Below, one piece after another: positions 10,988 through 62,358 of a stretch of 64,000 nucleotides of DNA. The DNA is taken from assembly GCA_020342235.1 (NCBI GenBank), contig CP073217.1, positions 1,488,001 through 1,552,000 on the forward strand, written 5' to 3'. This stretch comes from Saccharomycopsis phalli. Its lineage: Eukaryota; Ascomycota; Saccharomycetes; Ascoideales; Saccharomycopsidaceae. Position numbers and translations under genes: made by a program. Each line of letters starts with the position of its first letter. Position 1 is the stretch's first letter. The notes beneath the pieces are model-generated. The model saw only the letters and a program-made list of their open reading frames with translations, was not told the DNA's origin and did no database searches.

Positions 10988-11505
10988 GAGTGGTGAATGT
11001 GCTTCCTCTGATGTAATTATGTTTCTCTGATGTAATTGTGTTTCCTCTGGTATAATTGTGTTTCTCTGATATAATTGTGTTTCCTCTGGTATAATTGTAT
11101 TTGTCTGGTATGATTGTATTTAGTCTAATGTAATCGTGTTTCCTCTATTATAATTATGCTTTCTTTGATAGAACTGTGTTTCTCTGATATAATTATGCCT
11201 CTGATATAATTGTGTTTCTCTGGTATAATTGTATTTGTCTGGTATGATTGTATTTCCTCTAATTTAATTGTGTTTCTCTGATATAGTTGTGCTTCCTCTG
11301 GTATAATTGTGTTTCTCTGATATAATTATGCCTGATATAATTGTGTTTCTCTGGTATAATTGTATTTGTCTGGTATAATTGTATTTAGTCTAATGTAATC
11401 GTGTTTCCTCTATTACAATTATGCTTTCTTTGATAGAACTGTGCTTCTCTGATTAAATTGTGTTTCTCTGATATAATTATGCCTCCGATATAATTGTAGT
11501 AGTCT
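10988..11505. repeat. Minisatellite downstream of CCT3 (about 19-20-bp unit)
   Basis: About 25 degenerate copies of a unit like 'tctctgatataattgtgtt' run directly from the CCT3 stop. Variants (ggtataattgtatttg, gatagaactgtg) recur in the same order, so the array also shows a longer higher-order period. Confidence 0.9.
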
Positions 11506-31514: not shown

Positions 31515-32861
31515 ATGGCACTGGAGCTTGTCAGGATGCCTACTAAAGCAGGCCAGGCTGCTTATTTATTAAAACTCTTGGGACGAAAACGGGCAACGCT
31601 GGAGAAGGAGATGCACGACCCTGTACTTGGCCAGATGATGGCGTTGGTAGAGAATTACAAGCTTGCGCAAGCGATTGGTACTACGAGCCAAGACTCCACC
31701 ACTACCAAGGACCAACGACGGACCGAATTGAGCTGCATGGAGGTATATGAGGAGTTCCTTGAAGGCGAGTCTGAGGAATTGCCGGTTCTTCACCGCGAGA
31801 AGCACTTGAAGTACCTTGAAAACGCCATTGGCAGCCCGCTACCAAAACGGTTTGTCTCGTTGGCTGCATCCCAGACCTGGATATTGTACTGGTGGTTCAA
31901 CTCGTACTTGTTGCTAGGTGGAACCATCCTGGACGAGCACAGGACGTCGATTGGTGCCAAGATATTGCTGTGCCAGAGTCCCGAAGGCGGAATAGGAGGC
32001 GGTCCGGGCCAGTTGGCACATGTAGCTTCGACGTATGCGGGGACATTGGCACTTTCGTTGACGGAGGATAAGTCTGCGTGGGCGCAGATTGACCGGGAGA
32101 AAATGTACCACTGGCTTCTCCACGACTTGAAGCAGGAGGATGGGTCATTTGTCATGCACGTTGGCGGCGAAAAGGATACCAGAGCCGTGTATTGTGCGCT
32201 TGCAGTAGCGTCCATGTACAATCTTGTCACTCCGGAGCTTGTCCAAGGAACGGCAGAGTGGCTCTCGAGCTGCCAGACGTTTGAGGGCGGCTTTTCCGGG
32301 ATCCCCGACACCGAGGCCCATGGCGGATACACGTTTTGTGCGGTTGCCAGCTTATGTCTACTAGGAGACCCAAAGTTGATGTTGAACAGCCACTGCAGCT
32401 TGAGCAGCTTGACTAGATGGACGGTCAAACAGCAAATGGCGGTCGAGGGCGGGTTTTCTGGAAGAACCAACAAGTTGGTTGACGGCTGCTACAGTCACTG
32501 GGTGGGTGGGGTTTTCCCGTTTCTTGAAATGGCCACGGGCCATCGGCTCTTTTCCAGAGACGGCTTACTGGCGTATATTCTTGGCTGCTGCCAGGACGAT
32601 TCTGGGGGGTTGGTGGACAAGCCCGGGTGCTTTCCCGACTTTTATCATACAAACTACACGTTACTTGGGTTGTCGCATACCCAGCACCACTATACGTTTG
32701 ACCGGGCGAAGCTCAGCAAGATGGACCAGATGGATGCCGCTGGGTATTGTGTTGATGTTGTGAGGATCGATGACCAAGCGGGGAACCAGGTTCGGGCGGT
32801 GAATCCGGTGTTTGGCTGTGTTGCTGGATACGTGGAGGCGATGCGAAGTTTCTATGAATAG
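31515..32861 (+). CDS. RAM1: Protein farnesyltransferase beta subunit
   Basis: A 448-residue beta subunit (yeast Ram1 has 431) that, with Ram2, adds farnesyl to CaaX proteins such as Ras and a-factor. Family repeats are clear: CQSPEGGIGGGPGQLAHVAS, CQTFEGGFSGIPDTEAHGGY, EGGFSGRTNKLVDGCYSHWV. Zinc ligands Asp and Cys sit in the DKPGCFPDFYHTNY block, with the His in the later HHYTFD-containing part of the domain. The start is the ATG at 31515 (MALELVRMPT). A CTG codon just before the Cys of CQSPEGG lies where human FNTB has Leu, the one position I found that does not favour serine decoding. Confidence 0.93.
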   Translation: MALELVRMPTKAGQAAYLLKLLGRKRATLEKEMHDPVLGQMMALVENYKLAQAIGTTSQDSTTTKDQRRTELSCMEVYEEFLEGESEELPVLHREKHLKYLENAIGSPLPKRFVSLAASQTWILYWWFNSYLLLGGTILDEHRTSIGAKILLCQSPEGGIGGGPGQLAHVASTYAGTLALSLTEDKSAWAQIDREKMYHWLLHDLKQEDGSFVMHVGGEKDTRAVYCALAVASMYNLVTPELVQGTAEWLSSCQTFEGGFSGIPDTEAHGGYTFCAVASLCLLGDPKLMLNSHCSLSSLTRWTVKQQMAVEGGFSGRTNKLVDGCYSHWVGGVFPFLEMATGHRLFSRDGLLAYILGCCQDDSGGLVDKPGCFPDFYHTNYTLLGLSHTQHHYTFDRAKLSKMDQMDAAGYCVDVVRIDDQAGNQVRAVNPVFGCVAGYVEAMRSFYE

Positions 32862-33300
32862 TCTAGGAAGTTTCTATGAATAGTCTAGGAAGTTTCTATG
32901 AATAGTCTAGGATGTTTCTATGAATAGTCTAGGATGTTTCTATGAATAGTCTAGGATGTTTCTACGAGGGACGTTTCTATGAATGACGTTATGATGGACG
33001 TTTCTATGAATATACGGTATCCATAAATAAACAATTCTATGAATAATTGTTACTACGAATAACCGTTCTATGATGAACGTTTCCACCATACACATTCATT
33101 TCTAGCATAAACATTTCTATGAATAATTGTTTTACGAATATACCGTCTCTGAATATATGGTCTGAATATATGGTCTGAATATGGTCTGAATATGGTCTGA
33201 ATATGGTCTCAATATCGTCTGAATATCGTCTGAATATCGTCGTAATACCGCCTCAATATCGTCGTAATACCGTCTCAATACCCTCAACGGTCTCAACGAT
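32858..33300. repeat. Minisatellites downstream of RAM1 / upstream of APL3
   Basis: First, about five copies of a 22-bp unit 'gaatagtctaggatgtttct' start within the last codons of RAM1 and continue past it. Then related 'tctatgaatgacg' and 'tctatgaataattg' variants follow. From about 33150 an 11-bp unit ('gaatatggtct', later 'gaatatcgtct') runs toward the APL3 start. The C-terminal RAM1 residues RSFYE are encoded by the first repeat unit. Confidence 0.88.
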
Positions 33301-53155: not shown

Positions 53156-53268
53156 GGACGTGTGGCCGAGTGGTCTAAGGCGCCCGACTCAAGAGTTAAT
53201 CTCTTCGGTTGTATCAGCTGAGTATTCGGGTCTTGTAAGAGGCAAGAGTTCGAATCTCTTCGCGTTCA
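53156..53268 (+). tRNA. tRNA-Leu(CAA) with intron
   Basis: A 113-nt gene. The acceptor stem GGACGTG pairs with CGCGTTC (one G-U at position 2), the D arm is GTGGCCGAGTGGTCTAAGGC-like, the anticodon stem CCCGA pairs with TCGGG, and the anticodon CAA is at 53190-53192. An intron of about 30 nt sits after the anticodon loop, as in yeast tRNA-Leu(CAA). The long variable arm (TCTTGTAAGAGGC) and T arm AAGAG-TTCGAAT-CTCTT follow. No run of four or more T follows before the next tRNA. Confidence 0.93.
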
Positions 53269-53596: not shown

Positions 53597-53905
53597 TGAC
53601 GTACATTAGTGAAATGTACTTATCCTATCAGAGTTATTGGTCTCGTAACCACGATTATTGATGGTGTGGTTACAACCGGATGGAGCAGTATTACCCTACC
53701 TATAATACCTTATAAAAGGGATTTACTGCCTCCAAGTTATTTAGTTCAGAATTTTATATACACAATGTATATTACGGTATCTATTGGAACAATGTATAAT
53801 TGTTATAGTAGCTACTGACAGTTCTGTGCTCCGAACCTACAATATAATTTATTTAATATTGTGGGCCGTATTTACGTATTAAGTTTTTCCTTATGATTGA
53901 TCACA
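53597..53905 (+). repeat. 309-bp LTR-like repeat, family D, right copy
   Basis: The inverted partner of 52661-52969, with the same length and the same TG…CA ends (here …GATCACA). A second 'tgacgtac' lies 12 bp upstream. The truncated 5' end of the long LINE is joined directly to its right end. Confidence 0.75.
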
Positions 53906-55051
53906 GACCGGGTAAACCTGATTACAACAAAGCCAAGGCTTATCGACCGATAAGTCTCTTGAATATCATGGGGAAAATCTTTGAATCAATCATGACGCAG
54001 CGTTTGGCAGCTACGATTAGACTACCGAATCAACAGTACGGAGGCCGGGCAGGATACTGTGCGACTGATGCTGTTATGAAACTCATCAACGATGCTGATA
54101 TGCACAGAAATAGGCAAAAGAAGCGTGAACTACGACAGTACCAGAAGGGCGTCAGCACCCCTCCATCACAGCACAAGCACATGGGTGCAGTGCTAGTCGA
54201 TATCAAAGGAGCTTTCAACAACATGAACCACCCCATCCTCTTATCGAAGATGAAAGAAGTTGGGGCCCCGGGCGAGATAATCAATTGGACCAGCAGCTTC
54301 CTAACCAATAGGAAAACAAAACTCCGGATCAACAACAAGCTCTCAGAGAAGTGGATACCAGTGACCTTTGGAGTGCCTCAGGGCTCGCCGATCTCTCCTA
54401 TCCTTTTCATGATCTATACCCACGACCTCTATAAGCGACTACGAGACCATAGGGTCAAAGTAATTGGCTTTATCGATGACATAACCATATACAAGACAAG
54501 CGGACAGCGGACAATCCAGGGGCGCTCTCACAGAGTCTCAGCATATGCCACCAGTGGGCCCAAGAAAACTACACAGGCTTTGACTACGGGGAAAAACTAC
54601 AATACATCAGATTCTTTGCAAAATCACGCGGCTCAATTCTCCACCTTCCAGACGGAACAATAAAGGAAGAGTCCACAGAGGTGAAGCTACTAGGGATATC
54701 CTTAGACTCAAAACTTAGTTTCAGACAACACATTGGGACCATGACACTTCGTTTGAAGAGAACCACTGGACGGATACAGGCCATTAGTCGCATCACCAAT
54801 GGAACCCGAGGGAAGACCAATCTAATCTTGTTTAAGACATGCGCGCTACCCCTCATCACATATGGACTAGAGATTTTCTACCATAAGCTAACCAAGACCC
54901 AGATCGAAGCCATCAGAGTATGTTACAACATTTCATTGCGTAATGCACTTGGCATGTTGAAACCGACCCTGACCGGAATCCTCAATATTGAAGCAGGGAT
55001 GCTTCCGATCCAACTTCTTTTAAAACGAGCCGCGATAGAAAAGTGTGTGAG

Positions 55052-55692
55052 TGACGTGTTGAAAGTGCTGAAAGTGTTGAAGGAGTTAATGCATGGTGAA
55101 ATACATCATGCATGATAAATAAGCTGGTATTGAGAAATAGCAATCCTTCAGTACCATGATATCATACTGTTTATGGTATATTAAGAGTATGAGGTCATAG
55201 TATTAGCAATCTAATAAAGTTATCAGGTCATACTAATAGTGAACTGATAATAATATGAGGTCATACTAATAATGATGTCATGAGATAAAGATAACTGAAG
55301 GCATCTCAGAAAGAATATAAATAGGACAGGAAATAGCTAGTATAGTAACAAGAATAAGAATATCTACAATAGTAAGATATGGAAGCCATTGAAAGAAACG
55401 CTAGCTTACGACATGACGTAATCTAGCAGATCCTTATGGCATCCATATCTTCTATTATAGATAATTCATCTTCTTGTTACTATTCTAGCTATTTTCTGTC
55501 CTATTTATATTATTCTCTAAGATGCATTCAGTTATCCTTAACTTCAGATGTCTGTACCGGTGATCTCCTTAATGTATGACCCCACTGTCCATCTCCTTAA
55601 TTTATGAGATCCCCAATAGGACGATCTCCTTAATCTCTAGGATCTTCGACATCTTCAACATTTAATCTCTCAGATCTTCGACATCTTCAACA
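55052..55692 (-). mobile_element. Solo LTR, family A, interrupted by another LTR
   Basis: A 279-bp LTR on the minus strand (55052-55056 plus 55419-55692), nearly identical to the LTRs of the element at 59653-62256, with only about two differences by eye. It is flanked by the 5-bp duplication GTGAG (55047-55051 and 55693-55697) inside the LINE. It is a solo LTR left by recombination, and young. Confidence 0.88.
55057..55413 (+). mobile_element. Solo LTR, family B, nested in the family A LTR
   Basis: A 357-bp LTR with TG…CA ends (TGTTGAAAGTG … TTACGACA), inserted five bases inside the family A LTR and flanked by the duplication TGACG (55052-55056 and 55414-55418). It shares short blocks with family A ('ataaataggaca', 'gaaatagctag', 'agtaacaagaa'), so the two families are related. 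It is the youngest of the three layers at this site. Confidence 0.87.
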
Positions 55693-58783: not shown

Positions 58784-59652
58784 TTAAACGCCATTTCCAA
58801 TCAATGGGGCTTTAGTACCTTTATACAGAGTAATGCGAAATTTTTTGGCGTGTTGTCTGAGAATGTTTTTCATTTCTTGTGAATCGTAATCACCATTTTT
58901 ATAGGTGCTTTCGTGGTTTGGATTGGTTGAAATAAAGTAAGCAATGAGACCAGATACCTGCGGAGCGGCGTATGAGGTACCGCTGAGTTGGGTATTATCA
59001 TATTTAATCATTTCAGCTGTGGCCAAAAAATCGACGCAACTTCCCCAGTTAGAAAATTGCGACTCAATACCGCGATAATTGCATGAACCAACGGCACTTG
59101 CGTATTTTGAAGAGACCAACGGAACTCTACAGGCATTTTCATTTTCATTACCTGCAGCAATCGCGACATGAACATTAGGATTTTCGAAAAGGATATCGTC
59201 TAAATAGTCCAGGATTTCATGTGGTGGATCATATGGAGTAGAGTCATGGCCAAGACTGATATTGATTACAATGCCTTTTGGATGTGACAGTAGACGATTT
59301 GAGTGATAATCACTGATTGCAAGGTTAACTCCATTAATAATGTTTCCCATATTCAACGGCTTATCTTTGAATTTTATAGGGATAATAAAAACTTGGGCAT
59401 TTGGTGCGACACCTGTATCTTTTCCCGCAGCAATAAGGGCAACATTAATAGCATGATATGAGTTATCATGAGGTGGGCGTTTCTCATCGCTTGGGCGCTT
59501 ATAAATAAATTGGGGCTCTTTGATGAAACGATGTCGGTAGCGATACAATGGTATCAGCGGAGCGCTGTCGATAACGTAGATAGCAACACCTTCGCCGGCA
59601 TTATCGTCATATGTATAGTGGTAAGGGCCAGTTAGAGGTAGAATGTGGGCAG
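58784..59652 (-). pseudogene. Subtilisin-like serine protease (S8), catalytic part; gene split by an LTR element
   Basis: This holds nearly the whole protease domain. The catalytic Asp is in AIYVIDS (about 59585), His in NSYHAINVA (in place of the usual HGTHVA), oxyanion Asn in VAIAAGNEN, and Ser in SGTSYAAPQVSG. The frame is open rightward up to the element junction at 59652, with no start codon that would give a complete protein. The missing N-terminus lies beyond the element at 62257-62358 in the same orientation. The total would be about 320 residues, a short secreted subtilase without a large prodomain. The domain shows no stops, so the interruption seems recent. Confidence 0.82.
59648..59652. 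repeat. Target-site duplication, left
   Basis: GGCAG directly before the left LTR; the same five bases follow the right LTR at 62257-62261. Confidence 0.9.
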
Positions 59653-60329
59653 TGTTGAAGATGTCGAAGATCTGAGAGATTAAATGTTGAAGATGTCGAA
59701 AATCCTAGAGATTAAGGAGATCGTCCTATTGGGGATCTCATAAATTAAGGAGATGGACAGTGGGGTCATACATTAAGGAGATCACCGGTACAGACATCTG
59801 AAGTTAAGGATAACTGAATGCATCTTAAAGAATAATATAAATAGGACAGAAAATAGCTAGAATAGTAACAAGAAGATGAATTATCTATAATAGAAGATAT
59901 GGATGCCATAAGGATCTGCTAGATTACGTCAGGTTATGAGTTACCCTGAAGCGCGGCTGTTTTTCACCCAACAGAAAAGTTGCGAAGAGCTACCAGTTAT
60001 GCCAGATGGGCAAAGGTGTTCGTTCAGAAGTTTGATCCGTATGGCATTGGTCTTGTTCAGTATCTTGTTAATGGGGGGTCGTGGTTTACCAGACAGTTCG
60101 CCCAATGGTCTATTGACTAAAGCAACTAATGGATTAGATGCTCTCAATGGAATTTTATTGCAAAATAGACTGCCCAAAGATACTTATTAGAATATTAATA
60201 ATCCTGTGAATCAAATTATGAGGAGTTTTAGAGAAGCACTTAATAGTGGATCCTCTACCTCGAATGAAGCTGACCCTAGTATAGGTTCAGCTGTCAAAGG
60301 GGGAAAAGAGGTATCGGATTTCTGTGTTG

Positions 60330-60830
60330 GGATTATTAGGAGACTTATTAAGAGACTTATGGAAAGTCAGGAGACTTATTAAGAGACTTATGAAAGTCAG
60401 GAGACTTATTAGGAGACTTATAGATAGTCAGGAGATTTATTAAGAGACTTATAGATACTCAGGAGATTTATTAAGAGACTTATGGATAGTCAGGAGACTT
60501 ATTAAGAGACTTATGGAAGGTCAGGGGACTTATTAAGAGACTTATAGATACTCAGGAGATTTATTAAGAGACTTATGGATAGTCAGGAGACTTATTAAGA
60601 GACTTATGGAAGGTCAGGGGACTTATTAAGAGACTTATAGATACTCAGGAGATTTATTAAGAGACTTATGGATAGTCAGGGGACTTATTAAGAGACTTAT
60701 AGATAGTCAGGAGACTTATTAAGAGACTTATGGAAGGTCAGGGGACTTATTAAGAGACTTATAGATAGTCAGGAGACTTATTAAGAGACTTATGGATAGT
60801 CAGGAGATTTATTAGCAGACATGGATGTCA
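60330..60830 (+). repeat. Minisatellite inside the LTR element (about 31- to 42-bp units)
   Basis: Roughly 13 tandem copies built from 'ggagacttattaagagactt' plus 'atggatagtca' or 'atagatactca' variants. The variants alternate in a higher-order pattern. It spans a fifth of the element. Confidence 0.92.
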
Positions 60831-60934
60831 AGTGGCAAATAGATATGATTGACCAGGATAGTAATGACGCTCAGGAAGTTCTAGTTTCATTGGCGAAGAA
60901 GCAAAGTTGGACCAAATGAAAGACAATGATGTGA

Positions 60935-61235
60935 AACAGCTGTAATTAGTGAAGCAGCTGTGATTAGTGAAACAGCTGTGATTAATGAAGGAGCTGTGAT
61001 TAATGAAAGATCGGTGATTAGTGAAAGATCGGTGATTAATGAAAGATCGGTGATTAGTGAAAGATCGGTGATTAGTGAAAGATTGGTGATTAGTGAAAGA
61101 TCGGTAATTAGTGAAAGATCGGTAATTAGTGAAAGATCGGTAATTAGTGAAACAGCTGTGATTAGTGAAGGAGCTGTGATTAGTGAAGGAGCTGTGATTA
61201 GTGAAGGAGCTGTGATTAGTGAAGGAGCTGTGATG
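60935..61235 (+). repeat. 18-bp minisatellite inside the LTR element
   Basis: About 16 copies of an 18-bp unit such as 'gtgaaagatcggtgatta', with variant 'gtgaaggagctgtgatta'. Because 18 is a multiple of three, it is open in the plus strand, where each unit would read VISERS-like hexapeptides (60960-61316), and also on the minus strand (SFTNHR-like). Either may be chance. Confidence 0.92.
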
Positions 61236-62256
61236 ATTTATGCAGCTGACATGATTGAAATCATCGATACAATGAAAGGAAATACAAGGAAAAGAAAGTA
61301 TTTCAGAAAGCATTGAAGTGCTAATTAAGCTTATTATTGTCAGTGAGAGACAACTTCAGAGTAAAGGATCACTGCACTGAGTTGGTATAGTTAGGACTGA
61401 TTAAAGTGGAAGATTTGGAAATAAAGTTATTCACCAGTTTCATGGGAGCCCGTCATGGGTTGATATTTTCCTGATATTCTTAGCAAAATGGGGTAAAGGA
61501 ATGAATGCATCAAGGCAGTTAAGTGAAGAGTTATGATATATGCGAATAAAGAACCGGAGAAGTGCTGATGGAAAACAGTTATGACTGATGGGTTATCAAG
61601 TTTTGATGAAATTCCATTGATGATGAGAGTCTACATATAATATGAAGCACTATGAGAGGTGTCGGTTGTTTTATCCGACGAAACTAATTATTGCTACGGT
61701 GACGCATGCTTAGTTTTTGATGAAGGTAGCTGCTATTATTCCGCTATGTCTATGGCGCAGGAAATTGAAGTGGAAGGCTTCAGAAACGATTGATCAAAGA
61801 AATTGAAGAAACTATAATTGGCGGTAGGGTCAAAGAAATGCTTTGATGGTTAGAACCATAGGATGAAGAACTTGGTGCTGAAGAAATATTGCAGACGTGC
61901 TCACAAAGATTCTAGCAGATAGTAAATTCAATGAGTTAATTTCTGTGTGGAATGAGAAGCTTTCAGTTAAGGGAGGGTGTTGAAGATGTCGAAGATCTGA
62001 GAGATTAAATGTTGAAGATGTCGAAAATCCTAGAGATTAAGGAGATCGTCCTATTGGGGATCTCATAAATTAAGGAGATGGACAGTGGGGTCATACATTA
62101 AGGAGATCACCGGTACAGACATCTGAAGTTAAGGATAACTGAATGCATCTTAAAGAATAATATAAATAGGACAGAAAATAGCTAGAATAGTAACAAGAAG
62201 ATGAATTATCTATAATAGAAGATATGGATGCCATAAGGATCTGCTAGATTACGTCA

Positions 62257-62358
62257 GGCAGGACTCGATATGCGAGCCAAATATTTTTGGCTATCTTTTG
62301 TGACGATTTCTGCAAAAACTAGATATAAAAAATGGAAAAAGAAGATTATAAATAGCAT
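62257..62358 (-). pseudogene. N-terminal part of the split subtilisin-like protease
   Basis: Minus-strand frame from ATG at 62358: MLFIIFFFHFLYLVFA is a strong signal peptide, followed by EIVTKDSQKYLARISSP up to the insertion point. The frame phase matches that of the catalytic part at 59652. Upstream of the ATG the same frame is open for about 35 codons to a stop, but the signal peptide argues for this start. So the intact allele would encode a secreted protease. Confidence 0.72.

Follow-up and report, generated by a model that had tools for sequence, protein, structure and literature searches.

How does an LTR retrotransposon without intact genes of its own arise, and how does it keep moving? 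The question is raised by an element close to the end of contig C6 in the genome of Saccharomycopsis phalli (14.15 Mb in 8 contigs), lying in a stretch of 64,000 nucleotides (C6:1488001-1552000, hereafter the window) for which a first-pass annotation had been made from the letters alone. Helper-dependent LTR elements are common, and their cis needs and the link to a helper are rarely visible. Here, one small yeast genome holds four near-identical copies of such an element, a sister whose LTR is for the greater part nearly that of a relative bearing a reverse transcriptase (RT), a relative with an open frame and relatives with short arrays. Should this yeast prove culturable and transformable, one could test directly how helpers are chosen, which signals govern packaging and how minisatellites are born in reverse transcription. 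We refer to the element and its full copies as LARD1 (LARD, large retrotransposon derivative) and to two related elements as LARD2 and LARD3. Our analyses make it very probable that LARD1 is a LARD of the Ty5 group that derives from an autonomous Ty5-like element, is moved by the proteins of intact relatives, exchanges LTR segments with RT-bearing relatives and carries its minisatellites as by-products.

Structure of the element

LARD1 spans positions 59653-62256 of the window exactly (2604 bp; C6:1547653-1550256), and C6 ends 5.0 kb past it in an array of an 8-bp telomere-like unit. The first-pass annotation had listed identical LTRs, a perfect GGCAG duplication, a primer site and a purine tract, and all four were borne out (Table 1). 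With direct LTRs ending in TG...CA, a target duplication, a primer site and a purine tract, the element has the make-up of an LTR retrotransposon. The primer site has its complement in the anticodon stem-loop of tRNA-Met(CAT) genes of this genome: its motif was found at four places, and the three of these that were fetched are all such genes, the match to an initiator-type tRNA-Met comprising only 9 nt. Both the primer site and the purine tract are common to LARD1 and the RT-bearing relatives compared, and the closest of these relatives align to the LARD1 LTR mainly from the second of the two 32-bp units at its start (query 32/33-279). LARD1 RNA would be transcribed from its own LTR.

Table 1. 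Features of LARD1, in window coordinates.
Feature	Position	Strand	Evidence and remarks
Left target-site duplication, GGCAG	59648-59652	.	Perfect
5' LTR, 279 bp, TG...CA ends	59653-59931	+	100% identical to 61978-62256
32-bp direct duplication, two units, at LTR start	59653-59715	+	TRF; in both LTRs
TATA-box-like motif TATAAATAGGACAG, putative function	59836-59849	+	Present in 8/8 compared elements (in L037, 3' LTR only)
Primer-binding site GGTTATGAG, 9 nt, directly after 5' LTR	59932-59940	+	Complement of the anticodon stem-loop of tRNA-iMet (half-tRNA priming)
Decayed Gag N-terminus, frame broken	59896-60163	+	tblastn E=1e-14 and 3e-6, C7 polyprotein query
Integrase-RT linker fragment (~aa 889-924 of C7 polyprotein), upstream of integrase remnant	60252-60347	+	blastn 83% over 66 nt at 60252-60317; weak tblastn (E=0.82) at 60294-60347
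Minisatellite 1, 31-bp unit x 15.4, 89% matches	60338-60814	+	TRF; motif matches 15, 15, 16, 15 in the four copies
Minisatellite 2, 18-bp unit x 16.9, 92% matches	60931-61234	+	TRF; motif matches 16, 17, 16, 14 in the four copies
Decayed integrase core	61303-61513	+	tblastn E=2e-11, two joined pieces
Decayed SH3-like region of Pol	61561-61775	+	tblastn E=4e-6, two joined pieces; blastn 78% over 126 nt
Pol C-terminal tail (after RNase H), runs into 3' LTR	61882-61983	+	Frame; tblastn E=1e-6 at 61943-62005; blastn 77% over 392 columns from 61871 through LTR
Polypurine tract AAGGGAGGG, directly before 3' LTR	61969-61977	+	One base different in the RT-bearing relatives shown
3' LTR, 279 bp	61978-62256	+	100% identical to 5' LTR
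Right target-site duplication, GGCAG	62257-62261	.	Perfect

A decayed gag-pol gene in the interior

The interior had been described as having no gag or pol signature. This description fails, because a polyprotein encoded in the same genome aligns to it by tblastn in broken frames. The polyprotein is the open 1488-aa frame of a 4.9-kb Ty5-like element on contig C7, which has 252-bp LTRs that are 100% identical and is one of two elements in tandem with a common LTR; the frame matches the Ty5 Gag (PF17241), zinc knuckle, gag-pre-integrase, integrase core, SH3-like and RVT_2 models. Its Gag N-terminus, integrase, SH3-like region and C-terminal tail all align to LARD1 (Table 1; the tblastn E-values refer to one 2.6-kb subject, with the low-complexity filter and composition correction off). 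No RT remnant was detected in the interior in the alignment of this polyprotein, a Pfam scan of seven interior frames found no retroelement domain, and LARD1 contains no intact gag-pol frame. In the tandem locus on C7 (C7:1111990-1121536), 2.36-kb stretches within the fetched region are 99.96% identical.

The first-pass annotation had named, as evidence against its own reading, an interior that matches a known full-length element over its length. Such a match exists in patches only, amounting to about 867 of the 2046 nt (segments summed by hand), and the rest is unmatched, consisting of the arrays (782 nt) and of 397 nt without assignment. The DNA matches to the autonomous relative are colinear except for the 66-nt integrase-RT linker piece, which is out of order. 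The remnants align to a polyprotein with PF17241, then rve, then RVT_2, the copia order (integrase before RT) expected for the Ty5 group, and their broken frames, set against the 1488-aa open frame, give the combination of a noncoding gag-pol and coding relatives in the genome by which a LARD is recognized. Judged from these alignments, the interior is a decayed, partly rearranged deletion derivative of a Ty5-like (Ty1/copia) polyprotein gene plus two minisatellites. Its ancestor would have been an autonomous Ty5-like element that underwent deletion, rearrangement and loss of frame in gag-pol, and the parts kept intact resemble cis-acting ones, namely the LTR with its TATA box and TG...CA ends, the primer site with the gag start, and the Pol 3' tail with the purine tract.

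Copies, mobility and insertion sites

The genome contains four full copies of LARD1: the one in the window (L001; 2604 bp, target duplication GGCAG), C6:205111-207732 (L002; 2622 bp, TACTC), C4:1815251-1817912 (L003; 2662 bp, CCTGA) and C2:2156229-2158796 (L004; 2568 bp, TCATT). All four duplications are perfect and all are different. The three further copies exclude, for this genome, that the element is without other copies. The LTR pairs have no mismatch in any of the four (all eight LTRs are identical), and outside the arrays there is no substitution among the copies; six single-base indels, which may be decay or sequencing error, all fall in L003. L001 and L002 differ solely by one 18-bp unit. 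Four full copies with identical LTRs, four different duplications and no intact gag-pol frame support the original view of a young, non-autonomous element.

Alternatively, LARD1 might be a relic whose copies owe their spread to segmental duplication of subtelomeres or to gene conversion instead of transposition. Relatives do spread in this manner: LARD3 on C1 sits in a 7.9-kb duplication (99.85% identity), and the relics on C2 and C3 represent one ancestral copy, duplicated in a block that is 96% identical over 3.4 kb. Duplication would however be expected to leave shared flanks, whereas the four full copies carry four different perfect duplications, and the sole similarity among their 1.5-kb flanks at E 1e-5 is a stretch of 857 nt at 68.7%, which the upstream flanks of L001 and L003 share in inverse orientation. 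Spread by segmental duplication, true for LARD3 and the C2/C3 relics, was rejected for the four full LARD1 copies, and we consider it very improbable that LARD1 is a relic spread in that way.

Given copies that moved recently and the lack of an intact gag-pol frame, transposition with mobilization in trans by the proteins of related autonomous elements is the natural reading, and the LTR mosaic with an RT-bearing element described below points in the same direction. LARD1 RNA would be packed and copied by the proteins of intact Ty5-like elements in the same genome, and the cDNA would then be integrated with a 5-bp duplication.

Beyond the full copies, we picked 15 further LTRs by hand from 48 LTR matches. 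Ten of these are lone LTRs with a perfect 5-bp duplication (one after a 2-nt extension of the LTR), three are complete LTRs without duplication and two are partial; the search scored 40 of 154 candidates, so that LTR counts are lower bounds. A lone LTR of the LARD1 family, 99% identical, lies in the window at 55414-55692 on the minus strand. It has no 5-bp duplication (CTCAC vs TGTCG) and adjoins an LTR fragment on the opposite strand.

Three of the four full LARD1 copies lie within 25 kb of a contig end. When LARD2 is included, four of five duplication-flanked LARD insertions sit 4.7-24.2 kb from a contig end, and the fifth has its nearest RVT_2 match, part of the C6 cluster of Ty5-like elements, about 13 kb away; for comparison, 30-kb margins of the 16 ends make up about 3.4% of the genome, a margin that was chosen post hoc and a comparison that is uncontrolled for selection against insertions elsewhere. 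Ty5 prefers silent chromatin, and the position of the LARD insertions close to contig ends or a Ty5-like cluster resembles this preference. In the window, LARD1 adjoins a minus-strand subtilase frame (58784-59647; PF00082, E=6e-19), and since the match begins only at profile position 43 of 288, the insertion probably split a subtelomeric protease gene.

Autonomous relatives and a mosaic LTR

A search for an autonomous element with the same LTR, as the first-pass annotation had proposed, did not yield one. Among 48 LTR matches (40 of 154 candidates scored), no RT-bearing element was recognized whose LTR is closer than about 85% to that of LARD1; two of the LTRs, L057 and L059, look like lone ones and have no target duplication. 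RVT_2 matches number 83 in the genome, 23 of them within open frames of >1000 aa, and Ty5-Gag matches number 54. Comparisons of whole LARD1 with RT-bearing elements rest on blastn and tblastn, since the size difference makes pairwise alignments of entire elements uninformative in the arrays and toward the 3' end. One RT-bearing Ty5-like element, on C3, is flanked by the duplication ATTGG, and its two LTRs are identical; it may be damaged, because its Pol lies in two overlapping frames and its Gag in a separate frame of 129 aa. In a further RT-bearing copy (C6:225960-230858), the coding region is divided into frames of 506 and 984 aa, and the flanks are one base apart (TTTCA/TATCA).

A link to such relatives is visible in LARD2 (C7:1514431-1517201; 2772 bp, identical 415-bp LTRs, duplication ATATT). 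Its leader is identical to that of LARD1 at 173 of 173 positions (3 gap columns), its integrase-SH3 remnant at 628 of 633 and its tail at 110 of 110, and yet the LTRs of the two agree at only 230 of 278 positions, with 138 gap columns. Over 334 bp, the LARD2 LTR instead shows 97.6% identity to that of the RT-bearing C3 element. It equals LARD1 at positions 1-61, 61-357 differ from the C3 element in 2 columns, and 358-415 differ from the C3 element in 15 columns and from LARD1 in none. Because the last differences from LARD1 fall at 334 and 345 and identity to LARD1 holds over 358-415, we place the switch at about 346-358, just after the TATA-like box of LARD2 (320-333).

Such a sharp mosaic points to an exchange of LTR sequence with a helper, for which template switching is a possible mechanism. 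The U3 is of helper type, the ends are of LARD type and the break falls near the expected start of R, as would result if, in the established reverse-transcription cycle, strand transfer joined two different RNAs inside one particle. LTR segments would have been swapped between LARDs and RT-bearing relatives when RNAs of both were packaged together, with template switching as the probable route. Both the LTRs and the lengths of the arrays could also have been changed through recombination among genomic copies.

Minisatellites

Tandem repeats had been put at one third of the interior, and the two arrays indeed account for about 38% of its 2046 nt. Array length is graded among the relatives: LARD2 has 15.2 of the 31-bp and 11.9 of the 18-bp units, LARD3 has about 7 and 2.8, and the C2/C3 relics have about two degenerate 31-bp units and one degenerate 18-bp-like stretch (read on the C2 copy). 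At the stringency used, the cores of both units are confined to LARDs, with all 93 genome matches to a 16-nt core of the 31-mer (<=1 mismatch; 3 matches for a reversed control pattern) and all 38 matches to the 18-mer (<=2 mismatches; control 0) falling in copies of LARD1-3. The simplest reading of this gradient is a stepwise growth of the arrays that is still going on; we infer growth rather than loss in the relics, which are truncated. Descent of the units from the 4.9-kb autonomous element found no support, as local alignments of unit dimers to it were no better than those of shuffled units (as good in 131 of 200 shuffles for the 31-bp unit, and in 154 and 102 of 200 for variants of the 18-bp unit). 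In an interior free of coding constraint, the arrays would most likely be by-products of reverse-transcriptase slippage or template jumping. Many other minisatellites are present in the window between positions 1 and 34000, for example at 11006-11497 (19 bp x 26) and 32845-32964 (22 bp x 5.5), and array growth may hence be a habit of the genome and not only of LARD1.

Alternatively, the minisatellites could be functional cis elements, acting as reiterated RNA structure, as a dimerization site for packaging or as filler of RNA length, and grown by selection rather than by slippage alone. The two LARD lineages with identical LTRs have long versions of both arrays, the other relatives short ones, and the predicted fold of the 18-bp array is far more stable than those of its dinucleotide shuffles (z=-9.1, 0/100 as stable). 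Most of this effect is tandemness, however, because 32 of 300 tandem arrays of column-permuted units were as stable. The order of the 18-bp units was matched in stability by few random permutations in three copies (4, 2 and 4 of 200), by 20 of 200 in L004 and by 35 of 200 in LARD2, tests that are not independent since the copies are related. The 31-bp array, in turn, has no structure beyond that of shuffles (z=-0.2, 42/100 as stable), and array length varies between otherwise nearly identical LARD1 copies. We therefore regard a selected function of the arrays as unlikely. Quite unlikely, too, is the fuller proposal of a selected modular cis signal, in which a multiplied self-complementary unit would provide dimerization or packaging sites and outcompete the helper RNA while capture of helper LTRs keeps pace. 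A structured packaging signal in the leader likewise found no convincing support: the alignment fold reached z=-1.6 against 100 column shuffles, with one two-sided change in 50 pairs, in 8 sequences that represent few independent lineages (one covers the first 79 nt only, and there are two identical pairs).

The 18-bp array could also be coding, as a hexapeptide-repeat (left-handed beta-helix) protein, which would make the interior a gene and not debris. The frame 60930-61316 does score above the Pfam cut-off for Hexapep (E=2.9e-8, 33.5 vs 27 bits) and matches LbH_EIF2B with E=4.1e-9, below the cut-off of that model (36.8 vs 54 bits). But it has no methionine before the repeats from which a protein could start, LARD3 has no more than its 2.8 units, and any stop-free 18-bp period reads as a hexapeptide repeat. 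The match most plausibly stems from the 18-bp period itself, and a protein-coding array is extremely improbable. By-products of reverse transcription remain our preferred explanation of both arrays.

Relation to known elements

A half-tRNA-iMet primer, a 5-bp duplication and insertion at chromosome ends are among the family features of Saccharomyces Ty5 and of the Ty5-like clusters of CTG-clade yeasts. LARD1 is alike in its half-tRNA-iMet primer site, its 5-bp duplication, its insertions near ends and a Ty5-like cluster, and its relatives share with Ty5 the PF17241 Gag model and, in one of them, a single long polyprotein frame; it differs from Ty5 in coding for no intact Ty5 protein. The host, too, probably reads CTG as serine, a reading that raised the score of AP-2 alpha, the one gene compared, by 14 bits (from 430.8 to 445.1). 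TRIMs are elements of a few hundred bp with almost no interior, a class that is ruled out by the 2604-bp length of LARD1. Plant LTR elements with internal tandem repeats and with exchanged LTRs are known, and a limited search of titles and abstract openings found no description of minisatellites or chimaeric LTRs in LARDs. The original plant definition of LARDs has an interior of about 4 kb; that of LARD1 measures 2046 bp, and our use of the name follows its use in yeast for a 2.4-kb interior (PMC12711049).

The latter element, Ty5.L of Wickerhamomyces anomalus, is a non-autonomous LARD with two LTRs, a noncoding interior and a Ty5-type primer site for the tRNA-iMet anticodon stem, and its authors think that it draws on proteins supplied by autonomous Ty5-like elements of that species (PMC12711049). 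LARD1 shares with it the two LTRs, the absence of intact genes and the primer site. Ty5.L belongs, however, to another yeast order, and its LTRs are described as substantially unlike those of its autonomous relatives, whereas the LARD LTRs described here are mosaics with long stretches in common with RT-bearing relatives. The accessible part of its description places Ty5.L at centromeres and mentions no internal minisatellites (PMC12711049), in contrast to the near-terminal location of most full LARD1 copies and their two arrays. In Scheffersomyces stipitis, LARDs are found at centromeres beside Tps5a/b/c (PMC8546629). As far as the available text describes them, they are, like LARD1, noncoding, non-autonomous and accompanied by Ty5-like elements in a CTG(Ser) yeast, but they are components of centromeres, and the likeness is one of description and not of sequence. 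LARD1 is thus likely an undescribed family of an already described kind, the Ty5-group LARDs of other yeasts, and its LTR mosaic and graded minisatellites are details not found in the portions available of the S. stipitis and W. anomalus descriptions (PMC8546629, PMC12711049).

Other features of the genome and the window

Dense clusters of Ty5-like RT matches, which are candidate centromeres, occur once on each of C2-C7 and twice on C1 (at about 0.78-0.82 and 2.05-2.14 Mb); none of the RVT_2 matches reported lies on C8. The left subtelomere of C1 recurs, inverted, within the same contig at about 1.62 Mb (7.9 kb, 99.85%), and C1 may represent a chromosome fusion or a misjoin. Among the matches listed, exact telomere repeats lie on C1 only at its two ends. 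The telomere-like repeat has the 8-bp unit GGATGTGC and is found at contig ends, including the right end of C6. Exact three-unit matches were obtained at both ends of C1 and C3 and at the right end of C2, with none at the left end of C2, among the matches listed.

Within the window, a plus-strand frame of 256 aa at 53893-54663 contains an RVT_1 domain (E=5e-28) without an RVT_2 match, and is possibly a LINE fragment. Directly before a tRNA-Arg gene, an Rfam tRNA match at 53156-53268 on the plus strand is 113 nt long, a length that suggests an intron-bearing tRNA gene.
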